Part shown: piece by piece, positions 36,410 through 43,898 of the stretch
How the letters are laid out: each line of letters starts with the position of its first letter
How positions within the stretch are numbered: the first letter of the stretch is position 1
DNA from: Alphaproteobacteria bacterium
GTDB taxonomy: Bacteria > Pseudomonadota > Alphaproteobacteria > Bin65
DNA length: 64,000 bases
Reading direction: 5' to 3'
Assembly: GCA_022819985.1 (NCBI GenBank)
Contig: JAJEGH010000015.1
Coordinates: 1 to 64,000, forward strand
The notes under the pieces: model-generated
Databases searched by the model: none
What the model was told of the DNA's origin: nothing
The model's input: the letters and a program-made list of their open reading frames with translations, nothing else
Position numbers and translations under genes: made by a program

Positions 36410-37315
36410 TCAGGTCGGAATGTGGGAACTGTGGTTCTCCAGATACCACGCCGCGATGGCTTCGCGGGTCGCCCACCACACGCCCTCGAAGCCCCTGGCA
36501 TAGTCCAGGAACTCGCGCAGGGCCCGGATCCGGTAGGGATGGCCGGCGACATGCGGATGCAGGCCGACATTCATCAGCCGGCCGCTTTCCGCGCCTTCCA
36601 AATAAAGTTGGTCGAACTGTTCCTTCAGCAGGTCCAGCGCCATGTGGGTGGACATACCGCGTCGGTGGAAGAAGGTGAAATCGTTGATCTCCACCGAATA
36701 GGGCGTGGAGACGATCGGGCCCGACGGCGTGCGGATCAGGTAGGGCTGCTCGTCATTCATGTAGTCGCACAGGAAAATCAAGCCGTTTTCCGCCAGGATG
36801 TCGGCGGTCTGCGAGGTGCCGCGCAGGGAGGAGGACAGCCAGCCCCGGGCCGGCTTGCCGACGACCTGTTCGTAGACTTCGAGGGTGCGTCCGATCAGAT
36901 CGGCTTCGGCCGCCCGGTCGAACTGGTAGTTGGTCAGCAGGTCGCCCTGCTCGTAATTGTGCGCCACCAGCTCCCAGCCGCGTTCCCGGACCGCGTCGAT
37001 CACCGGTCGTCTCTCCAGTCCCATCTTGGCGTTCATGGTGCAGCCCGCGGGCACGCCGGCCTTGTCGAACGTGTCGATCATCCGCCACACGCCGACCCGC
37101 TGGCCGTATTCGCGCCAGGTGAAATTGTGATAGTCGGGTACGTTGCCGGGCAGGGGATCGGGCAGCACCGGCGGGCCGCCGGCATAGTAGGGCGCGGTGG
37201 TATCCTTCACCAGGTCCCAGAATTCCAGGTTGATCGTGAGGATCAGCGCCAAGCGCGCGCCGTTCGGCCATTTCAGCGGGTTGCGCGCCGGCAGGGGCAC
37301 ATAATCGTAATGCAT
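36410..37315 (-). CDS. Polysaccharide-deacetylase-fold (NodB/PuuE-like) hydrolase
   Basis: 301 residues from the ATG at 37315; upstream in-frame Mets at 37375 and 37474 give non-conserved N-termini. The NodB fold is recognisable from LALILTINLEFWD (motif 1 region), GVWRMIDTFDKAGVPAGCTMNAKMG, WELVAHNYEQGDLLT (motif 2 His) and LMNVGLHPHVAGHPYRIRALREFLDY. These match the PuuE/allantoinase-like and HpPgdA subgroup, which act on small C-N compounds as well as on glycans. It is 23 bp upstream of the liv-type transporter, so it may hydrolyse the transported compound. Confidence 0.82.
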   Translation of the reverse strand: MHYDYVPLPARNPLKWPNGARLALILTINLEFWDLVKDTTAPYYAGGPPVLPDPLPGNVPDYHNFTWREYGQRVGVWRMIDTFDKAGVPAGCTMNAKMGLERRPVIDAVRERGWELVAHNYEQGDLLTNYQFDRAAEADLIGRTLEVYEQVVGKPARGWLSSSLRGTSQTADILAENGLIFLCDYMNDEQPYLIRTPSGPIVSTPYSVEINDFTFFHRRGMSTHMALDLLKEQFDQLYLEGAESGRLMNVGLHPHVAGHPYRIRALREFLDYARGFEGVWWATREAIAAWYLENHSSHIPT

Positions 37316-37473
37316 GATATCGCAGGATGCTCCCGGCGCGCCTGCGCCCGCTGCATTTTGCGCAGTAAAGTGCATGTAGCGAATGGAGTATGTCAACGCA
37401 GCCGGGGGGCGGCTGGATTTGCCGAAGTGCCGCACGGAAGCGGCGGAAACCGGGGGGGTTGACCGGAACGACA

Positions 37474-38541
37474 ATGGGCGACGGCTATATCCGGAATGCC
37501 TGGTATGTGGCGGCGTGGCACCACGAGCTTTTGGGCGGCGCCGAAAGGCGGCCGCTCGCCCGCACGCTGCTCGGCGAGCCGGTCGTCCTGTTCCGGCGGG
37601 CCGACGGAACCCCGGCGGCCCTGGAAGACCGCTGCCCGCACCGGCGCCTGCCGCTTTCCATGGGCACGGTCGTCGGCGACGCCCTGCAATGCGGCTATCA
37701 CGGCTTTACGCTGGACGGCGCCGGGCGCTGTGTGCGCATTCCGGGGCAGGACAGCATCCCCGACGCCGCCCGGATACGCGCCTATCCGGCGGTCGAGAAA
37801 TGGCGCTGGATCTGGGTCTGGATGGGCGATCCGGCGCTGGCCGACGAGAGCACGATCCCGGACGTTGCCCTGAACGGCCATCCGGACTGGGCGGTCACGG
37901 AGGGCGAACCTCTGCATGTCGAGGGCCACTACCAGCTTGTCGTCGACAATCTGATGGACGGCTCGCACGTCTCCTTCGTGCACAAGTCGACGCTCGGCAC
38001 CGATGACGTCGCCGACATTCCGGTGCGCGCCGAACGCGACGGCGACCGGGTGCGCATGACTCGCTGGATCCTGGACCGACCGCCGGCGCCGATCTACGCC
38101 GCGCTCGGCGGGTTCGAGGGCAATGTCGACCGCTGGCAGATCATCACCTTCGCGCCGCCCTCCATGGTGGTGGTCGATATGGGCAGCGCAGCAGCCGGGA
38201 CGGGCGCGCCGAAAGGCGACCGCAGCCGGGGGGTGGAACTGCGGTCCTTCAATCTGATCACACCTGAAACCGATCAGAGCAGCTTCTATTTCTATACCCA
38301 TGTGCGCAACTTCTCGCTGATCGATGCGGACGTGGACAGGCGGGTCAGGGACCTGTTCCGCGAGGCGTTCCTGGAGGACAAGGTCGTCATCGAGGGCGTG
38401 CAGCGGGGAAACGAGCGGTTCCCCGGCAGCCCGCGCGTCGATGCCGTCTTCGACCGGGCGCCCACGATGGCGCGCCGCGTCGTCGAACGGCTCGCCCGGC
38501 GGGAAGCGATGCCGGATTCCCGTGTCGTTGCTGCCGGATAG
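37474..38541 (+). CDS. Rieske oxygenase, VanA-like
   Basis: 355 residues from MGDGYIRNAWYVAAW, the standard N-terminus of vanillate-demethylase-type oxygenases. The Rieske cluster is C54-x-H56 and C73-x2-H76 (CPHRRLPLSMG, CGYHGFTLDG). The mononuclear iron site is in VDNLMDGSHVSFVHKSTLG. It typically demethylates or hydroxylates an aromatic acid, using an external reductase that is not seen nearby. It is followed 43 bp later by a flavin monooxygenase and diverges from the deacetylase/Liv operon. A 12-bp unit with its stop codon is triplicated at its 3' end. Confidence 0.9.
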   Translation: MGDGYIRNAWYVAAWHHELLGGAERRPLARTLLGEPVVLFRRADGTPAALEDRCPHRRLPLSMGTVVGDALQCGYHGFTLDGAGRCVRIPGQDSIPDAARIRAYPAVEKWRWIWVWMGDPALADESTIPDVALNGHPDWAVTEGEPLHVEGHYQLVVDNLMDGSHVSFVHKSTLGTDDVADIPVRAERDGDRVRMTRWILDRPPAPIYAALGGFEGNVDRWQIITFAPPSMVVVDMGSAAAGTGAPKGDRSRGVELRSFNLITPETDQSSFYFYTHVRNFSLIDADVDRRVRDLFREAFLEDKVVIEGVQRGNERFPGSPRVDAVFDRAPTMARRVVERLARREAMPDSRVVAAG

Positions 38542-38568: not shown

Positions 38569-38584
38569 GAAGGTGAGGGCATAC

Positions 38585-39787
38585 ATGGCAGAAACAGACC
38601 GGGTAGTCGTCGCGGGTGCGGGGCCAGTCGGCATGACCGCCGCCGCGTATCTGGCGCTGCACGACATTCCGGTGCTGGTGCTGGAGGCAGGCGACGACCT
38701 GGCGACCGACCTGCGCGCCTCGACCTGGCATCCGCCGACCCTGGACATGCTGGATTTCTTCGACGGCATCGTCGGGGAACTCGCCGGCTGGGGCCTGATC
38801 GCGCCGACCTGGCAGTACCGCGACCGGGAAACCGGCCCCGTCGTCACCTGGGACATGAGCCTACTCAGGGACGATACCGGCCATCCCTACCGGATCCAGA
38901 CCGAGCAGTGGAAGCTGACCCGCCTGCTGCACCGGCGCATGGCGGACGTGCAGCATTTCGATCTGCGCTTCGGCCATGAGGTGACCGGGGCCGGCCAGGA
39001 CGGCGACCGGGCCTGGGTTACGGCGAACACCGCGGACGGCATCGGGAAATTCGAAGGCCGGTGGGTTATCGGCGGCGACGGCGCCAACAGTGCGGTGCGC
39101 CGGTCGCTCGACGTCGCCTATGACGGGCTGACCTTTCCGGAGCTGTTCCTGACGCTCTCGACGAGCTTCGAATTCCGCGGTCCGATGCCGGACCTCACTC
39201 CGGTCAATTATTTCGCCGACCCGGAGGAGTGGCTGGTGCTGCTTCGCGTCGTCGATGCCTGGCGGGTGCTGTTCCCGACCGGCCCGGACGAGGACATGGA
39301 ATTCGCGCTGACCGACGAGCGGGTGCAGGAACGCCTGGCGGGTGTCGCGCCGGGCTGCGGGCCGTTCGATGTCGTGCACAAGACCTACTACCGGGTCCAT
39401 CAGCGGGTCGCCGACCGGTACCGGATCGGCCGCATCCTGCTGGCCGGAGACGCCGCCCATATCAACAATCCGCTCGGCGGCATGGGCATGAACGGCGGCA
39501 TCCAGGACGCCTTCAGCCTGTGCGAGAAGCTGGTCGCCGTCTGGCGCGGCGAAGCGGAAGATTCGGTGCTCGACCGCTACGAGCGGCAGCGCCGGCAGAT
39601 GGCGCTGGATTTCGTGCAGCAGTCGACCATCCGGAACCGGGAGACCCTGATGGAGACCGACCCGGTGCAGCGGCAGAAGCGGCACGACGAGATGCGCCGC
39701 ATTGCCGACGACCCGGCGCGGGCGCGGGAATTTCTGCTGCGCAGTTCGATGATCGCCGGTCTGCGCGAAGCCGAGGCGATCCCTTGA
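38585..39787 (+). CDS. FAD-dependent aromatic monooxygenase
   Basis: 400 residues from MAETDRVVVAGAGPVGMTAA. The FAD-binding GxGxxG (about 10-15), the WVIGGDGANSAVRRSL segment (DG motif, about 160-175) and RILLAGDAAHINNPLGGMGMNGG (GD motif, about 280-302) define a class A flavoprotein hydroxylase such as the p-hydroxybenzoate, 3-hydroxybenzoate or MhpA types. It sits in a two-gene operon with the VanA-like oxygenase, consistent with demethylation then hydroxylation of one aromatic compound. The exact substrate is unknown. Confidence 0.9.
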   Translation: MAETDRVVVAGAGPVGMTAAAYLALHDIPVLVLEAGDDLATDLRASTWHPPTLDMLDFFDGIVGELAGWGLIAPTWQYRDRETGPVVTWDMSLLRDDTGHPYRIQTEQWKLTRLLHRRMADVQHFDLRFGHEVTGAGQDGDRAWVTANTADGIGKFEGRWVIGGDGANSAVRRSLDVAYDGLTFPELFLTLSTSFEFRGPMPDLTPVNYFADPEEWLVLLRVVDAWRVLFPTGPDEDMEFALTDERVQERLAGVAPGCGPFDVVHKTYYRVHQRVADRYRIGRILLAGDAAHINNPLGGMGMNGGIQDAFSLCEKLVAVWRGEAEDSVLDRYERQRRQMALDFVQQSTIRNRETLMETDPVQRQKRHDEMRRIADDPARAREFLLRSSMIAGLREAEAIP

Positions 39788-39824
39788 TCTATGGAAATAT
39801 ATTGCATAGTATGTAATATATTTC
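39784..39824 (+). promoter_or_regulatory. Promoter with overlapping 31-bp near-perfect palindrome
   Basis: TTGATC (39784-39789), 17 bp, TAGTAT (39807-39812). The -10 sits at the centre of an inverted repeat with 15-bp arms (39794-39808 and 39810-39824, one mismatch): GAAATATATTGCATA mirrored about a single G. A large AT-rich operator over the -10 suggests repression of the racemase-fold gene at 39860. It could also end the upstream transcript. Confidence 0.6.
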
Positions 39825-39859
39825 GTAATTAGCCCAGCTAGTTCCGGAAGGAGAACAAT

Positions 39860-40606
39860 ATGGTCGATTCGATCGGTCACCGCATGAAATTCGGCGTCAT
39901 CGCGCCGTCCACCAACACGGCCGTGCAGCCGGAGTTCGATTCCTTTCGGCCTTACGGCGTGACCAACCATTTCGCCCGCATCCACATCCCGGACAATCCG
40001 GTGCGCAACGACGACGATTTCAATCAACTGATGGTCGATATCCGGGCCGAGCTGATGGTGGCGATCGACCGGGTGGTCACCTGCTCGCCGGGCGCCGTGA
40101 TCATGGGCATGTCGGCCGAGACCTTCTGGGACGGGCTCGAAGGCTCGAAGATCTTCCACCGGAATTGCGAGGCGCGTGCCGGCGTGCCGGTCTCGATGGG
40201 CTCCGACGCCTGCCAGGCGGCGCTGCGCAAATACGGCGACATCAAGCGGATCGGCGTCATCACGCCCTACATGCCGGTCGGCGACGAGAATGTCCGCAAG
40301 TTCTTCGAGGATTGCGGCTTCGAAGTGGTCAATCTCAAGGGCCTGAAATGCGCCAGCCCGCAACTGATCGCCCATGTCTCCGAACGGGAACTGCGCGATT
40401 CGATCGTCGAGGTAAACGACAGCCAGGTCGAGGCGATCGTCCAGGTCGGCACCAACCTTGCCATGGCGCGGGTCGCGGCGATCGCCGAATTCTGGCTCGA
40501 CAAGCCGGTGATCGCGATCAACACGGCGACCTACTGGTGGTCCCTGCGCCAGCAGGGCATTGAGGATAAGGTCTACGGCTGGGGCAGCCTGATGCAGGAC
40601 TATTAA
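39860..40606 (+). CDS. Asp/Glu racemase-superfamily protein lacking both catalytic cysteines
   Basis: 248 residues with an SD of GGAAGGAG. The fold is that of maleate isomerase/arylmalonate decarboxylase: GVIAPSTNTAVQPEF (the TNT ligand-binding motif, 18-20) and IKRIGVITPYMPVGDENVRKFF. At the two catalytic positions it has IMGMSAETFW (Met84) and IVQVGTNLA (Gly197), where the isomerase at 42430 has YGCTAGS and LSCTDLA. Normal thiol-based racemisation or isomerisation is therefore not expected. A decarboxylase, lyase or binding function is open. Its promoter is covered by a 31-bp palindrome. Confidence 0.82.
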   Translation: MVDSIGHRMKFGVIAPSTNTAVQPEFDSFRPYGVTNHFARIHIPDNPVRNDDDFNQLMVDIRAELMVAIDRVVTCSPGAVIMGMSAETFWDGLEGSKIFHRNCEARAGVPVSMGSDACQAALRKYGDIKRIGVITPYMPVGDENVRKFFEDCGFEVVNLKGLKCASPQLIAHVSERELRDSIVEVNDSQVEAIVQVGTNLAMARVAAIAEFWLDKPVIAINTATYWWSLRQQGIEDKVYGWGSLMQDY

Positions 40607-40642: not shown

Positions 40643-41533
40643 TCACCCCCCGGTATCCAGGCGGAACGCCTCGCGGTGGCGGACGATGCGGCCGGCGACC
40701 GGGGTGGGGAAATGCCCGGCGAGCAGGATGGAATCGGTATCGGCCAACCGTTCGATCATAGCGGTGCGGCTTTGAGCCGACATCGCCGGGTCTTCGCAGA
40801 AGGCGCTCGACAAGCCGGGGTCGCAGAGCTGCAGGGGCGTGTGCATGGTGTCGCCGCACAGCAGGGCGTGGCGGCCGCCGTCCTTCACATTCACATTGAC
40901 GTTGCCCGGCGTATGGCCGAAGGCGGGCTCCAGCCAGATGCCATGGTCGAGCTCGTGGTCTGCCTCGACCAGCACCGCCCGCCCGGCCTCCACGACGGGC
41001 AGAACGCTGTCGTCGAAGCTGCCGTGGTTGGGCGGCTCCTGCGCGCCTTCGGCCTTTGCGCGGCGGGCTTCGGCCTCCCAGAACTCGTACTCCCGGCGCG
41101 CGAAGACATAGCGGGCGTTGGGGAAGGTCGGCACCCAGCGGCCGTCGACCAGCTGCGTGTTCCAGCCGACATGGTCGGCGTGCAGATGGGTGCACATCAC
41201 CACGTCGATGTCTTCCGGCGCGACGCCGGCCGCGCGCATGGTGTCGAGGAACGGGGTTCGCTGCCGGTGCCACATCGGCCGGTGCGGCCGGTCTTTGTCG
41301 TTGCCGACACAGCAATCGACCAGGATGGTGCGGCGCGGCGTGCGCAGGACGAGCGCGTGAAAGGCCATGATCAGCTTGCCGTCCGGCGCAACGAAGCGGG
41401 GCGTCAGCCAGTCGGCGTTGGCGTCGACCAGCTCCTGCGTCGCGCCCGGCAGGATGAAATCGAAGTCGGCGAAGGCGCCTTCGGCCTCCACGATCCGGTC
41501 GATGACGATGTCGCCGATAACCTGGGTTTTCAT
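40643..41533 (-). CDS. MBL-fold metallo-hydrolase
   Basis: 296 residues with the zinc motif THLHADH (115-121), further ligands His in EPPNHGSF/DHELDHG regions, and Asp in LLCGDTMHTPLQL. This is a metallo-beta-lactamase-fold hydrolase of the lactonase/glyoxalase-like class. It is the last gene of the leftward catabolic run. A lactone or thioester hydrolysis step fits the context but is not proven. It is convergent with the cysteine-less racemase-fold gene. Confidence 0.88.
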   Translation of the reverse strand: MKTQVIGDIVIDRIVEAEGAFADFDFILPGATQELVDANADWLTPRFVAPDGKLIMAFHALVLRTPRRTILVDCCVGNDKDRPHRPMWHRQRTPFLDTMRAAGVAPEDIDVVMCTHLHADHVGWNTQLVDGRWVPTFPNARYVFARREYEFWEAEARRAKAEGAQEPPNHGSFDDSVLPVVEAGRAVLVEADHELDHGIWLEPAFGHTPGNVNVNVKDGGRHALLCGDTMHTPLQLCDPGLSSAFCEDPAMSAQSRTAMIERLADTDSILLAGHFPTPVAGRIVRHREAFRLDTGG

Positions 41534-41581: not shown

Positions 41582-42430
41582 CTACAGGATTCCGGGCTTT
41601 TCGTGGTGCCGGTCCCGGGCACCGGCGGCGGCTTCGTCCGGCGGCAGCGAATCGTCCCACAGGCGCGCGATATAGCGCTCCGCGGTATGGCCGTTCGAGC
41701 GGTCCGAGCACAACCACAGGATCGGCGCGCGCATGATCTCCGGCCGCAGCAGTCCGCCGTCAGCGCCGCGCTTGTGTTTCATTTCCGGCAGGATGGCGGT
41801 GTCGGTCGCGCCGCCGGGCAGGAAGACGTTCACCGTCACGCCCGTGCCGTCCAGATCCTGCGCCCAGACCCGGCTCATCGCCTCCAGCATCGCCTTGCTC
41901 GGCCCGTAGGGCGAATAGCCGACGCGCACGATGGTCACGTCGCTGGTCGAGACGTTGACGATCTTGCCGAAGCCCTGCCCGATGAAACGGGGCGTGAAGG
42001 CGCGCGCCATGTTGAAGACGCCATTGATGTTAGTGTCGACGATCTCGCGCCAGCCGTCGAGCGGCGCCTCCCAGAATTTCGGCCGCTCCTCGACATAGTT
42101 CGGATGGACCAGCTTCATGCCGCGCCCGGCGTTGTTGACCAGGCAGTGCACGGCCCCGAAGGCGTCCAGCGTCCGTTCGAGGACGCGCAGGCAATCCTCG
42201 TAATTGCGCACATCCGCCTGCGCCGCGATCAGCCGGCCGGGCCCGGCCAGCGCCGCAGCCCGCGCCTCGACATCGGCCAGCTCGCCGGCCTCGCGGGCGC
42301 TGGTCACCGCCACCCGCGCGCCGGCGCCGACCAGGGCGAGCGCCATCTCGAGGCCGAGGCCCCTGCCGCCGCCGGTGACGACGGCGACACGATCCTTTAG
42401 CGACGGGTAGAGATCGGCCGCGGCTGTCAT
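41582..42430 (-). CDS. Short-chain dehydrogenase/reductase
   Basis: 282-residue SDR with TGGGRGLG (about 20-27), NNAG (about 96), Ser in VNVSTSDVTIV and YGPSK (about 161). The C-terminus carries about 25 residues beyond the usual core (SLPPDEAAAGARDRHHEKPG). The start overlaps the stop of the maleate isomerase gene (TGATG), so the two are translationally coupled. A role in the same pathway is inferred. Confidence 0.9.
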   Translation of the reverse strand: MTAAADLYPSLKDRVAVVTGGGRGLGLEMALALVGAGARVAVTSAREAGELADVEARAAALAGPGRLIAAQADVRNYEDCLRVLERTLDAFGAVHCLVNNAGRGMKLVHPNYVEERPKFWEAPLDGWREIVDTNINGVFNMARAFTPRFIGQGFGKIVNVSTSDVTIVRVGYSPYGPSKAMLEAMSRVWAQDLDGTGVTVNVFLPGGATDTAILPEMKHKRGADGGLLRPEIMRAPILWLCSDRSNGHTAERYIARLWDDSLPPDEAAAGARDRHHEKPGIL

Positions 42431-43185
42431 CAGTGTTCCCGGAGCAACCGTCCGAAGCCGTCGAGCCGGTCGTCGATCCCGGCGCGGCGCAGCGCGAACC
42501 AGAAGGTTGCCGTGTTGCTGCTGACGACAGGCTTGCCGGTTTCGGCTTCCAGCCTTTCGATCGCGTCCAGCGTCGCCAGATCGGTGCAGGACAGCAGGAT
42601 CGCCTGCGCCTCCGGCCGGTCGACGCGCTTCGCCAGGGCATAGACCTCCTCGGGCCGGATGCGCGCGATGTTGCGGTGCTCCTGCGGCCCGCCGGCGCCG
42701 TAACCGAAGCCTTCCTCATGGATGACCGCGACGCCGTGGTCGGCCAGGAAGCGGACCTCGTGGGCATTGAGCGCGCGGTCATAGGGCGTGCCGAGCGCCA
42801 CCTTCGTCGCGCCGAGGGCGCGCAGGGCTTCGACGATGGCCTGCGCCGTCGTCACTGCCGGCCGCCCCGTACGTTCGGCCATGAAGTCCGGCAGACCTTC
42901 GACCGGGCTGACCATGGACCCGGCGGTGCAGCCATAGGCGATCAGGTCGACGCTCGCCTGGGCCAGATCGCCGGCATAGCGCTCGACGTCGGCGTAGAGC
43001 GCCGTCTTGCCGGCTTCGCTCGCCGTATCGAGATGCAGCGGCATGCGCGCGGCATGGATCGTCACGCCGGGCGGCGTCATGCGCGCCCATTCGGCCTCGT
43101 TGGCGGTGTTGGTGGGCGGGACGATAACGCCGATCTTGGCTCGTGTGCCGTAAACGGTCGGATCGTCGATGCGGTCCAGCCGCAT
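42430..43185 (-). CDS. Maleate cis-trans isomerase
   Basis: 251 residues from the ATG at 43185. GVIVPPTNTANEAEWARM contains the TNT motif, and the two catalytic cysteines are C86 (IAYGCTAGSM) and C200 (LLSCTDLATL). Position and motif agree with NicE/maleate isomerase, which converts maleate to fumarate. It is 8 bp downstream of a cysteine hydrolase resembling maleamate amidohydrolase, the enzyme that makes maleate from maleamate. The pair is the end of several pyridine-ring degradation pathways. Arylmalonate decarboxylase is the nearest alternative but has only the second Cys. Confidence 0.85.
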   Translation of the reverse strand: MRLDRIDDPTVYGTRAKIGVIVPPTNTANEAEWARMTPPGVTIHAARMPLHLDTASEAGKTALYADVERYAGDLAQASVDLIAYGCTAGSMVSPVEGLPDFMAERTGRPAVTTAQAIVEALRALGATKVALGTPYDRALNAHEVRFLADHGVAVIHEEGFGYGAGGPQEHRNIARIRPEEVYALAKRVDRPEAQAILLSCTDLATLDAIERLEAETGKPVVSSNTATFWFALRRAGIDDRLDGFGRLLREH

Positions 43186-43193
43186 GGCGCCGG

Positions 43194-43898
43194 CTACTCG
43201 GCAGCCTGTGCCGGCGCGCCTGCGAGGGCGCCGATGACCTCGTCGGTCGTCATGACGTCGGCGAAGTTGATCGACATGCTGGTCAGGCTGGCGTTGTGGA
43301 TGGCGTCGGTATAGGTCGCGTTGCCGTCGGTCACCATGATGACATGGAAGTTGCGCATCATGGCGTCGCGCGCGGTCGCTTCGCAGCAGACGTTGGTGAG
43401 CGTGCCGGTTACCGCCAGGGTATCGATGCCCCGGGAGCGCAATTGCGCCTCGATGTCGGAAGATCCTTGGATGAAGGCGCTGAAGCGCCTCTTGACCGAC
43501 CGCATGTCGCCGTCTTCGGCCTCCATGTCCGGCCAGAGGGGATGGCCTTCGGCGCCTTCCATGAGCTGCCGCGCGATCCGCTTCGCCATCTCCGGGCTGA
43601 CGGTGCCGCCCAGGAAGGACGACCATTCGGTGAAGATGTTCTCGTCGAAGGTGGTGGTGACCCAGACGACCGATCCGCCGGTCGCCCGGAAAGCGGCCGC
43701 GAGGCGATTGATGTTGGGCACGATTTCGCGTGCCATCGGCACTTCCGAAGGCAGACCCGGCTTGAGAAATGCCGTCTGCATGTCGACCACGACCAGAGCG
43801 GTGCGCGCAGGATCGAGCGTGTCGTGGACATGGAGGCGGCCGCCGCGCCGCGCCTTGATAAACCGGACGGCATCCGGATGGATTTCGGTTTTGTGCAT
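43194..43898 (-). CDS. Isochorismatase-like cysteine hydrolase, probable maleamate amidohydrolase
   Basis: 234 residues with the triad D39 (VVVDMQTAF), K136 (SVKRRFSAF) and C171 (TLTNVCCEATARDAMM). The N-terminal extension of about 30 residues before the first strand resembles N-carbamoylsarcosine amidase-type members. With the maleate isomerase gene immediately downstream, the best assignment is maleamate to maleate plus ammonia (NicF-like). An N-carbamoyl or other amide substrate is the alternative. Confidence 0.8.
   Translation of the reverse strand: MHKTEIHPDAVRFIKARRGGRLHVHDTLDPARTALVVVDMQTAFLKPGLPSEVPMAREIVPNINRLAAAFRATGGSVVWVTTTFDENIFTEWSSFLGGTVSPEMAKRIARQLMEGAEGHPLWPDMEAEDGDMRSVKRRFSAFIQGSSDIEAQLRSRGIDTLAVTGTLTNVCCEATARDAMMRNFHVIMVTDGNATYTDAIHNASLTSMSINFADVMTTDEVIGALAGAPAQAAE

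Follow-up and report, generated by a model that had tools for sequence, protein, structure and literature searches.

Gene neighbourhood of the cysteine-free gene

The window, a 64,000-nucleotide stretch of an alphaproteobacterial contig, carries a forward-strand gene for a 248-residue protein of the AMDase/maleate isomerase fold that lacks both catalytic cysteines. The sequence AAGGAG, resembling a ribosome-binding site, lies immediately 5′ of its ATG. The features of the locus are as follows:

36410–37321, reverse strand, PuuE-like (NodB-fold) amidohydrolase
37390–38541, forward strand, Rieske oxygenase with a VanA-type C-terminal domain, upstream of the FAD monooxygenase gene
38579–39787, forward strand, FAD monooxygenase (402 amino acids; Pfam and PDB matches), directly upstream of the cysteine-free gene
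39794–39824, no strand, AT-rich inverted repeat (31 bp, 15-nt arms, one mismatch) between the monooxygenase gene and the cysteine-free gene
39860–40606, forward strand, cysteine-free protein of the AMDase/maleate isomerase fold (248 amino acids; translation, Pfam, structural model)
40109–40111, forward strand, ATG codon of Met84 at the first catalytic cysteine position
40448–40450, forward strand, GGC codon of Gly197 at the second catalytic cysteine position
40643–41533, reverse strand, metallo-β-lactamase-fold hydrolase
41582–42430, reverse strand, short-chain dehydrogenase, conserved in the cluster
42430–43185, reverse strand, two-cysteine maleate-isomerase-like paralogue
43194–43898, reverse strand, isochorismatase-family (RutB/biuret-hydrolase-like) amidohydrolase

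The closest solved relatives of the FAD monooxygenase are PnpA (PDB code 6AIN; E = 1.8e-59) and HspB (PDB code 7DA9; E = 2.3e-51). The Rieske oxygenase cluster was found in only four sources, the window included. The inverted repeat, which may be an operator, recurs almost unaltered in the closest relative (L001), differs in L002 and is absent from L003 and L004. An antisense reading frame (38861–40375, reverse strand, 504 amino acids) overlaps the monooxygenase gene and the cysteine-free gene, and is most likely a by-product of the high GC content.

Family membership and fold

The protein belongs to the Pfam AMDase family (PF17645), with a score of 55.3 bits against a cut-off of 25.9. The Pfam Asp/Glu racemase profile (PF01177) did not match it at E ≤ 0.001, and matches the two-cysteine paralogue with 37.3 bits. 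Scores against two NCBIfam models fall well below their cut-offs: 47.4 bits versus 225 for arylmalonate decarboxylase (NF052327), and 64.1 bits versus 318 for the ectoine utilisation protein EutA (TIGR02990), the latter being a partial HMM match (residues 104–246).

An AlphaFold model (pLDDT = 93.7, pTM = 0.91) agrees with the initial annotation, which had stated that the fold is kept. Its best structural match, maleate isomerase 2XED (Z = 32.4, r.m.s.d. = 1.7, 234 residues aligned), places it in the two-domain pseudo-symmetric maleate isomerase fold. The next matches are the maleate isomerase 4FQ5 (Z = 31.2), AMDase (EC 4.1.1.76; PDB codes 3DG9 and 3IXL; Z = 29.9 for 3IXL) and OPAG_01669 of Rhodococcus opacus (PDB code 4IX1; Z = 27.9), and Foldseek yields the same set. 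The maleate isomerases of Nocardia farcinica (2XEC/2XED) and Pseudomonas putida S16 (Iso, 4FQ5/4FQ7) match over the whole chain (Z = 31–32) and share an N-terminal PS-N motif, a TPY motif and the Asn and Tyr columns of the pocket. They differ, however, in having both catalytic cysteines, and their identity to the 248-residue protein is only about 18–21%. In the alignment a proline takes the column of maleate isomerase Asn163, a residue whose number and role we assume here.

The two catalytic positions

In the translation, the motif IMGMSAETFW spans residues 81–90 and QVGTNL residues 195–200, so that the residue numbers first proposed for the two sites are right. When the solved maleate isomerases are aligned by profile, their two catalytic cysteines share columns with Met84 and Gly197. 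Both cysteines of the paralogue at 42430–43185 align with the same two residues, and also with residue 74 and the second cysteine of AMDase; residue 74 reads as Cys in this row because 3IXM is a Gly74Cys mutant, and the first-site letter is therefore not that of the wild type. In the model, strand 79–82 stops just before Gly83-Met84-Ser85 and strand 192–195 just before Val196-Gly197-Thr198, as expected for the two catalytic loops. A shift by one residue, equating Gly83 with AMDase Gly74 (LMGTS/IMGMS), was rejected, as it needs an insertion or deletion and even then supplies no cysteine.

The neighbouring paralogue retains both cysteines, as had been claimed, and so do all 42 rows of its two-cysteine group. 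The protein itself has neither the cysteine pair of maleate cis-trans isomerases nor a counterpart of AMDase Cys188, whose column holds Gly197. We conclude that the loss of both catalytic cysteines is real.

According to one study, the first and second sites of AMDase hold Gly and Cys, respectively, and Cys188 is its sole proton donor, given there as a criterion (PMC4996985). AMDase and our protein thus each have a site without Cys, but in the branch described below the arrangement is reversed, Gly occupying the second site while the first is variable and mostly apolar. The general statement that the chemistry of this family needs a cysteine holds for the characterised members: in addition to AMDase, a 2025 paper says that two cysteines are conserved across the superfamily (PMC12661438), and another reports that Cys mutants of NozR failed (PMC10156859). 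The uncharacterised 4IX1 has the same fold and was solved with neither cysteine (Gly/Gly by alignment), and the cysteine-free state is therefore not unique to our protein. The Sulfolobus tokodaii protein ST0656 (2DGD), named hypothetical arylmalonate decarboxylase, aligns with Arg in the first catalytic column and Cys in the second. A search of the open-licence literature returned no characterised or described cysteine-free member, branch or pathway and no paper on 4IX1, an absence that carries little weight.

Conservation in close relatives

The best 80 of 240 confirmed relatives, with 66–97% identity to the protein, were taken as the close set. Met84 is present in all 80 and Gly197 in 79, the remaining one having a gap. 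The homologues do share the IMGMSAETFW motif: with the protein itself counted, Gly83, Met84, Ser85, Glu87, Thr88, Phe89 and Trp90 are identical in at least 80 of these 81 rows, and Ser17, Thr18, Asn19, Ser85, Glu87 and Trp90 are near-invariant in the close set. Values of dN/dS against seven relatives range from 0.10 to 0.20, indicating purifying selection, and the gene was found in all seven genomes of the genus (that of the window included) and in all four further genomes of the family that were searched. Random loss and sequencing error were rejected on the constancy of Met84, the low dN/dS and the presence of the gene in every genus and family genome searched.

A deep cysteine-free branch

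Relatives down to about 28% identity were gathered from genomes and plasmids, and a tree of 74 rows was built with the two site columns blanked. It takes in 13 of the 80 close relatives and 8 of the 42 two-cysteine rows (seven and that of the window); L109 was dropped, being a fragment of 44 residues. One branch, with support of 100/99, separates 50 rows, none of which has Cys at either site, from 24 rows that include every cysteine-bearing sequence. Gly197 is present in all 50. Residue 84 is Met in 27, Ile in 8, Leu in 6, His, Val and Asn in two each, and Asp, Glu and Tyr in one each. Gln195 occurs in 45 of the 50 and is mostly Ile or Leu in the 12 rows of the two-cysteine group. Among the pocket residues, Asn19, Arg40 and Pro136 are found in all 50 rows, Asn221 in 49, Ser85 and Asn199 in 44 each and Tyr137 in 40. 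Judged by these alignments, the cysteine-free state is an old branch and not a decayed copy, because the 50 rows form a single clade and Gly197 is constant within it. The protein had been singled out for its missing cysteines; the absence stands, the oddity does not.

Outside this branch, cysteine-free sequences occur at two separate spots, L114/L159 and 4IX1. L114 and L159 make up a second cysteine-free lineage, whose first and second sites read Gln and Gly, respectively. 4IX1 lies on a long branch joined to AMDase, and the placement of the long branches (L086, 2DGD, 4IX1 and AMDase) is unsure. Within the 50 rows, L107 and L155 form a sub-branch in which residue 84 is acidic (Asp or Glu), possibly a change of catalytic residue; their genes adjoin one for a LeuC-like hydratase.

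Searched with a profile of the branch, 46 of 385 genomes of the class (a hand count) have a match of at least 200 bits; at phylum level, 4 of 398 genomes, that of the window among them, have one at E ≤ 1e-55. Only a minority of these matches were read at the two sites. One member (L088) is from Rhodococcus, in a different phylum. The protein also matches 262 of 72,556 plasmid records. Eight of these were read; members in plasmid records carry the annotation arylmalonate decarboxylase, and three of the eight (L083, L087 and L088) have no usable annotation. One genome of about 3.1 Mb (G039; loci L095, L101, L102, L105, L106, L107, L109, L111 and L113) has 11 matches to the 248-residue protein. 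Both sites were read in eight of them, of which six have neither cysteine and two have the full pair.

Gene context in relatives

Gene clusters were derived from our own selection of reading frames and blastp, not from curated annotation; neighbour frequencies are raw counts and omit L118–L142, whose flanks are only about 1.5 kb. In 44 of the 80 close loci, as in the window, the cysteine-free gene is immediately preceded by a co-directional FAD monooxygenase gene, and the gap is nearly always below 100 bp. In 7 of the 80 an HpaB-type monooxygenase gene stands divergently beside the cysteine-free gene in place of the FAD type. A NicF-like amidase gene lies directly upstream in 11 of the 80 loci; its product has 3OT4 as best PDB match, an entry that we take to be NicF. 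PuuE-like relatives are encoded directly downstream in 25 of 80. A flavin monooxygenase was not seen in 15 of the 80 close loci, several of which are stretches of only 3–5 kb.

Forty-five of the 80 loci extend over at least 20 kb. Of these, 43 have a flavin monooxygenase, which belongs to the FAD type in 42 and to the HpaB type in one. An amidase resembling NicF or PuuE is encoded in 40, and 39 combine monooxygenase and amidase. A two-cysteine maleate-isomerase-like gene is present in 35, and a gene for a lyase resembling petal death protein/2,3-dimethylmalate lyase in 32. Many Alphaproteobacteria have the cluster, a sponge-derived genome (L002) among them, and culturable carriers of the cysteine-free gene include Rhizobium straminoryzae (L018) and Hoeflea alexandrii (L020). 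Such clusters, with their flavin oxygenases and amide-cutting enzymes, look like pathways for the breakdown of ring compounds. They resemble the late nicotine/nicotinate pathway (HspB, NicF, NicE/Iso) in the HspB-like monooxygenase next door to the cysteine-free gene, the NicF-like amidase in many relatives and the maleate-isomerase-like protein; they differ from it in the additional cysteine-free protein, PuuE-like protein and, in relatives, dimethylmalate-lyase-like protein.

The distant set comprises 37 loci, 36 of them from the branch and one the unplaced L109. A flavin monooxygenase was seen in 7 of them, an amidase in 9, either in 11 and neither in 26. Three (L145, L149 and L150) have the order NicF, cysteine-free gene, monooxygenase, and L160 has monooxygenase, cysteine-free gene, PuuE. 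The link to monooxygenase and amidase is thus strong among close relatives of the window's protein and loosens with distance, since 26 of the 37 distant loci have neither partner.

Other neighbours were seen as well. The genes of L084 (10001–10747, Leisingera) and L085 (10001–10750, Bradyrhizobium elkanii) stand beside a gene for a TetR regulator and a large adenylation gene of the NRPS type, so that some of the branch may have a biosynthetic role as well. At L108 the cysteine-free gene lies between genes for a dimethylglycine-dehydrogenase-like protein (DAO and GcvT domains) and an MttB-like methyltransferase, a context that suggests breakdown of N-methyl compounds. With neither partner in 26 distant loci, and with unrelated neighbours of the NRPS and GcvT/MttB types, the reaction may differ between sub-branches. 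In L043 (9027–9773) and L069 (4079–4825) the cysteine-free gene directly follows a fumarylacetoacetase gene; no homogentisate dioxygenase was noticed among the reading frames listed for these two loci.

Proposed function

The initial annotation had offered either another mechanism or ligand binding without turnover. Operon context and purifying selection make us lean towards an enzyme, which falls short of proof. We infer that the protein is an enzyme and that it acts after the monooxygenase. The full reading, to which we give slightly less than even confidence, is a working thiol-independent enzyme of the cysteine-free AMDase/maleate isomerase branch that takes part in a catabolic cluster, with a carboxylate product of the monooxygenase as its substrate. 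The flavin monooxygenase would hydroxylate or open a ring, probably of a nitrogen heterocycle, to give this carboxylate. Once the cysteine-free protein has acted on it, the NicF- or PuuE-like amidases and the two-cysteine maleate-isomerase-like enzyme would finish the pathway.

In AMDase, as described in a mechanistic study, a dioxyanion hole binds the carboxylate that is retained, while a hydrophobic pocket expels the other. Hole and pocket drive the cleavage; with arylmalonates this step limits the rate (solvent isotope effect 1.05), and Cys188 serves only to protonate (PMC12576825). By alignment, the hole residues Thr75, Ser76, Tyr126 and Gly189 would correspond to Ser85, Ala86, Tyr137 and Thr198, so that the hole appears partly kept. 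The predicted site for one carboxylate would be retained, formed by Asn19, Ser85, Tyr137, Thr198 and neighbouring backbone amides. In place of the thiols flanking the reacting carbon there would be a bulky apolar Met on one side and, on the other, a Gly that leaves open space. Our guess at the reaction is a decarboxylation or tautomerisation, most likely by way of an enediolate or enol that the dioxyanion hole would hold and to which water or the substrate itself would donate the proton. If the intermediate were already stabilised, by an adjacent enol or the heterocycle, a thiol would not be needed. Against this reading, the AMDase hole appears only partly kept (Thr75 to Ser, Ser76 to Ala), and water is deemed an unlikely proton donor for AMDase in the same study (PMC12576825), which speaks against a simple transfer of the AMDase mechanism.

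Among the alternatives, it is possible, though unlikely, that the protein opens a ring or removes a formyl group without a cofactor, and in this way bridges the gap from the HspB-like monooxygenase to maleamate. Elsewhere this step is carried out by an iron-dependent 2,5-dihydroxypyridine dioxygenase and a deformylase. The dioxygenase (NicX) presumably belongs to the Peptidase_M29 family, which has no match in the window's genome (97.4% complete), so that the usual nicotinate route is not obviously complete. The HspB-like monooxygenase and maleate-isomerase-like protein of the cluster and the NicF-like amidase of many relatives fit such a role. However, hydrolysis could fall to the PuuE-like protein, and ring opening to the monooxygenase itself.

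A catalytically dead binding protein, serving as sensor or chaperone for a pathway intermediate, is rather improbable. Both catalytic residues of characterised relatives are missing and residue 84 varies widely in the branch, as such a role would allow, but Gly197 is invariant among the 50 rows, the gene sits inside enzyme operons, one genome has 11 family matches, and a domain search of the protein gave no attached DNA-binding or signalling domain.

We hold it very unlikely that the protein catalyses cis-trans isomerisation as maleate isomerase does, with glutathione or another small thiol in place of a cysteine of its own; Gly197 would leave room for such a thiol. Characterised maleylacetoacetate isomerases use glutathione, and at L043 and L069 the gene follows that of fumarylacetoacetase, where a maleylacetoacetate isomerase would be expected; yet these are only 2 of 80 loci, and the cluster already has a two-cysteine isomerase.

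The remaining cysteines of the protein are at positions 75, 103, 118, 152 and 164. In the 50-row branch Cys164 occurs in 33 rows, Cys75 in 32, Cys152 in 19 and Cys118 in 16. As none is universal, a misaligned catalytic cysteine was rejected for the branch as a whole. For the close group the possibility of cysteines at shifted positions does not fall entirely: among the protein and the best 80 of its 240 relatives Cys152 is present in all 81 rows and Cys164 in 77, and Cys164 is a candidate thiol peculiar to this group because its loop may border the pocket. Even there, that Cys164, or with less likelihood Cys152, is catalytic and the protein an ordinary cysteine enzyme is most improbable, given the partial occurrence of both residues in the branch and their location away from the two catalytic loops.

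Significance

Our preferred reading, a thiol-independent enzyme acting after the monooxygenase, could be extended to the branch as a whole, and here we only speculate. The branch would form a separate catalytic class within the Asp/Glu racemase fold, performing metal-free and thiol-free opening or decarboxylation of hydroxylated N-heterocycles after a flavin monooxygenase. This would provide an aerobic route to maleamate-type products that dispenses with an iron dioxygenase, with residue 84 (Met, Ile, Leu, Val, His, Tyr, Asn, Asp or Glu) setting the reaction in each sub-branch. We regard this extension as doubtful.

Within this known family, the cysteine-free branch itself appears to be new, judged by the open-licence literature. 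Cysteine-dependent chemistry is the rule in print, and 4IX1 is an earlier solved cysteine-free structure. What is added is a well-supported branch of many members that has neither cysteine, with a constant Gly at one site and a variable residue at the other, and for these members the annotation as arylmalonate decarboxylase in plasmid records is misleading. The branch also marks a catabolic cluster common to many Alphaproteobacteria, and if its members are active, they show to what extent the scaffold can dispense with a thiol.
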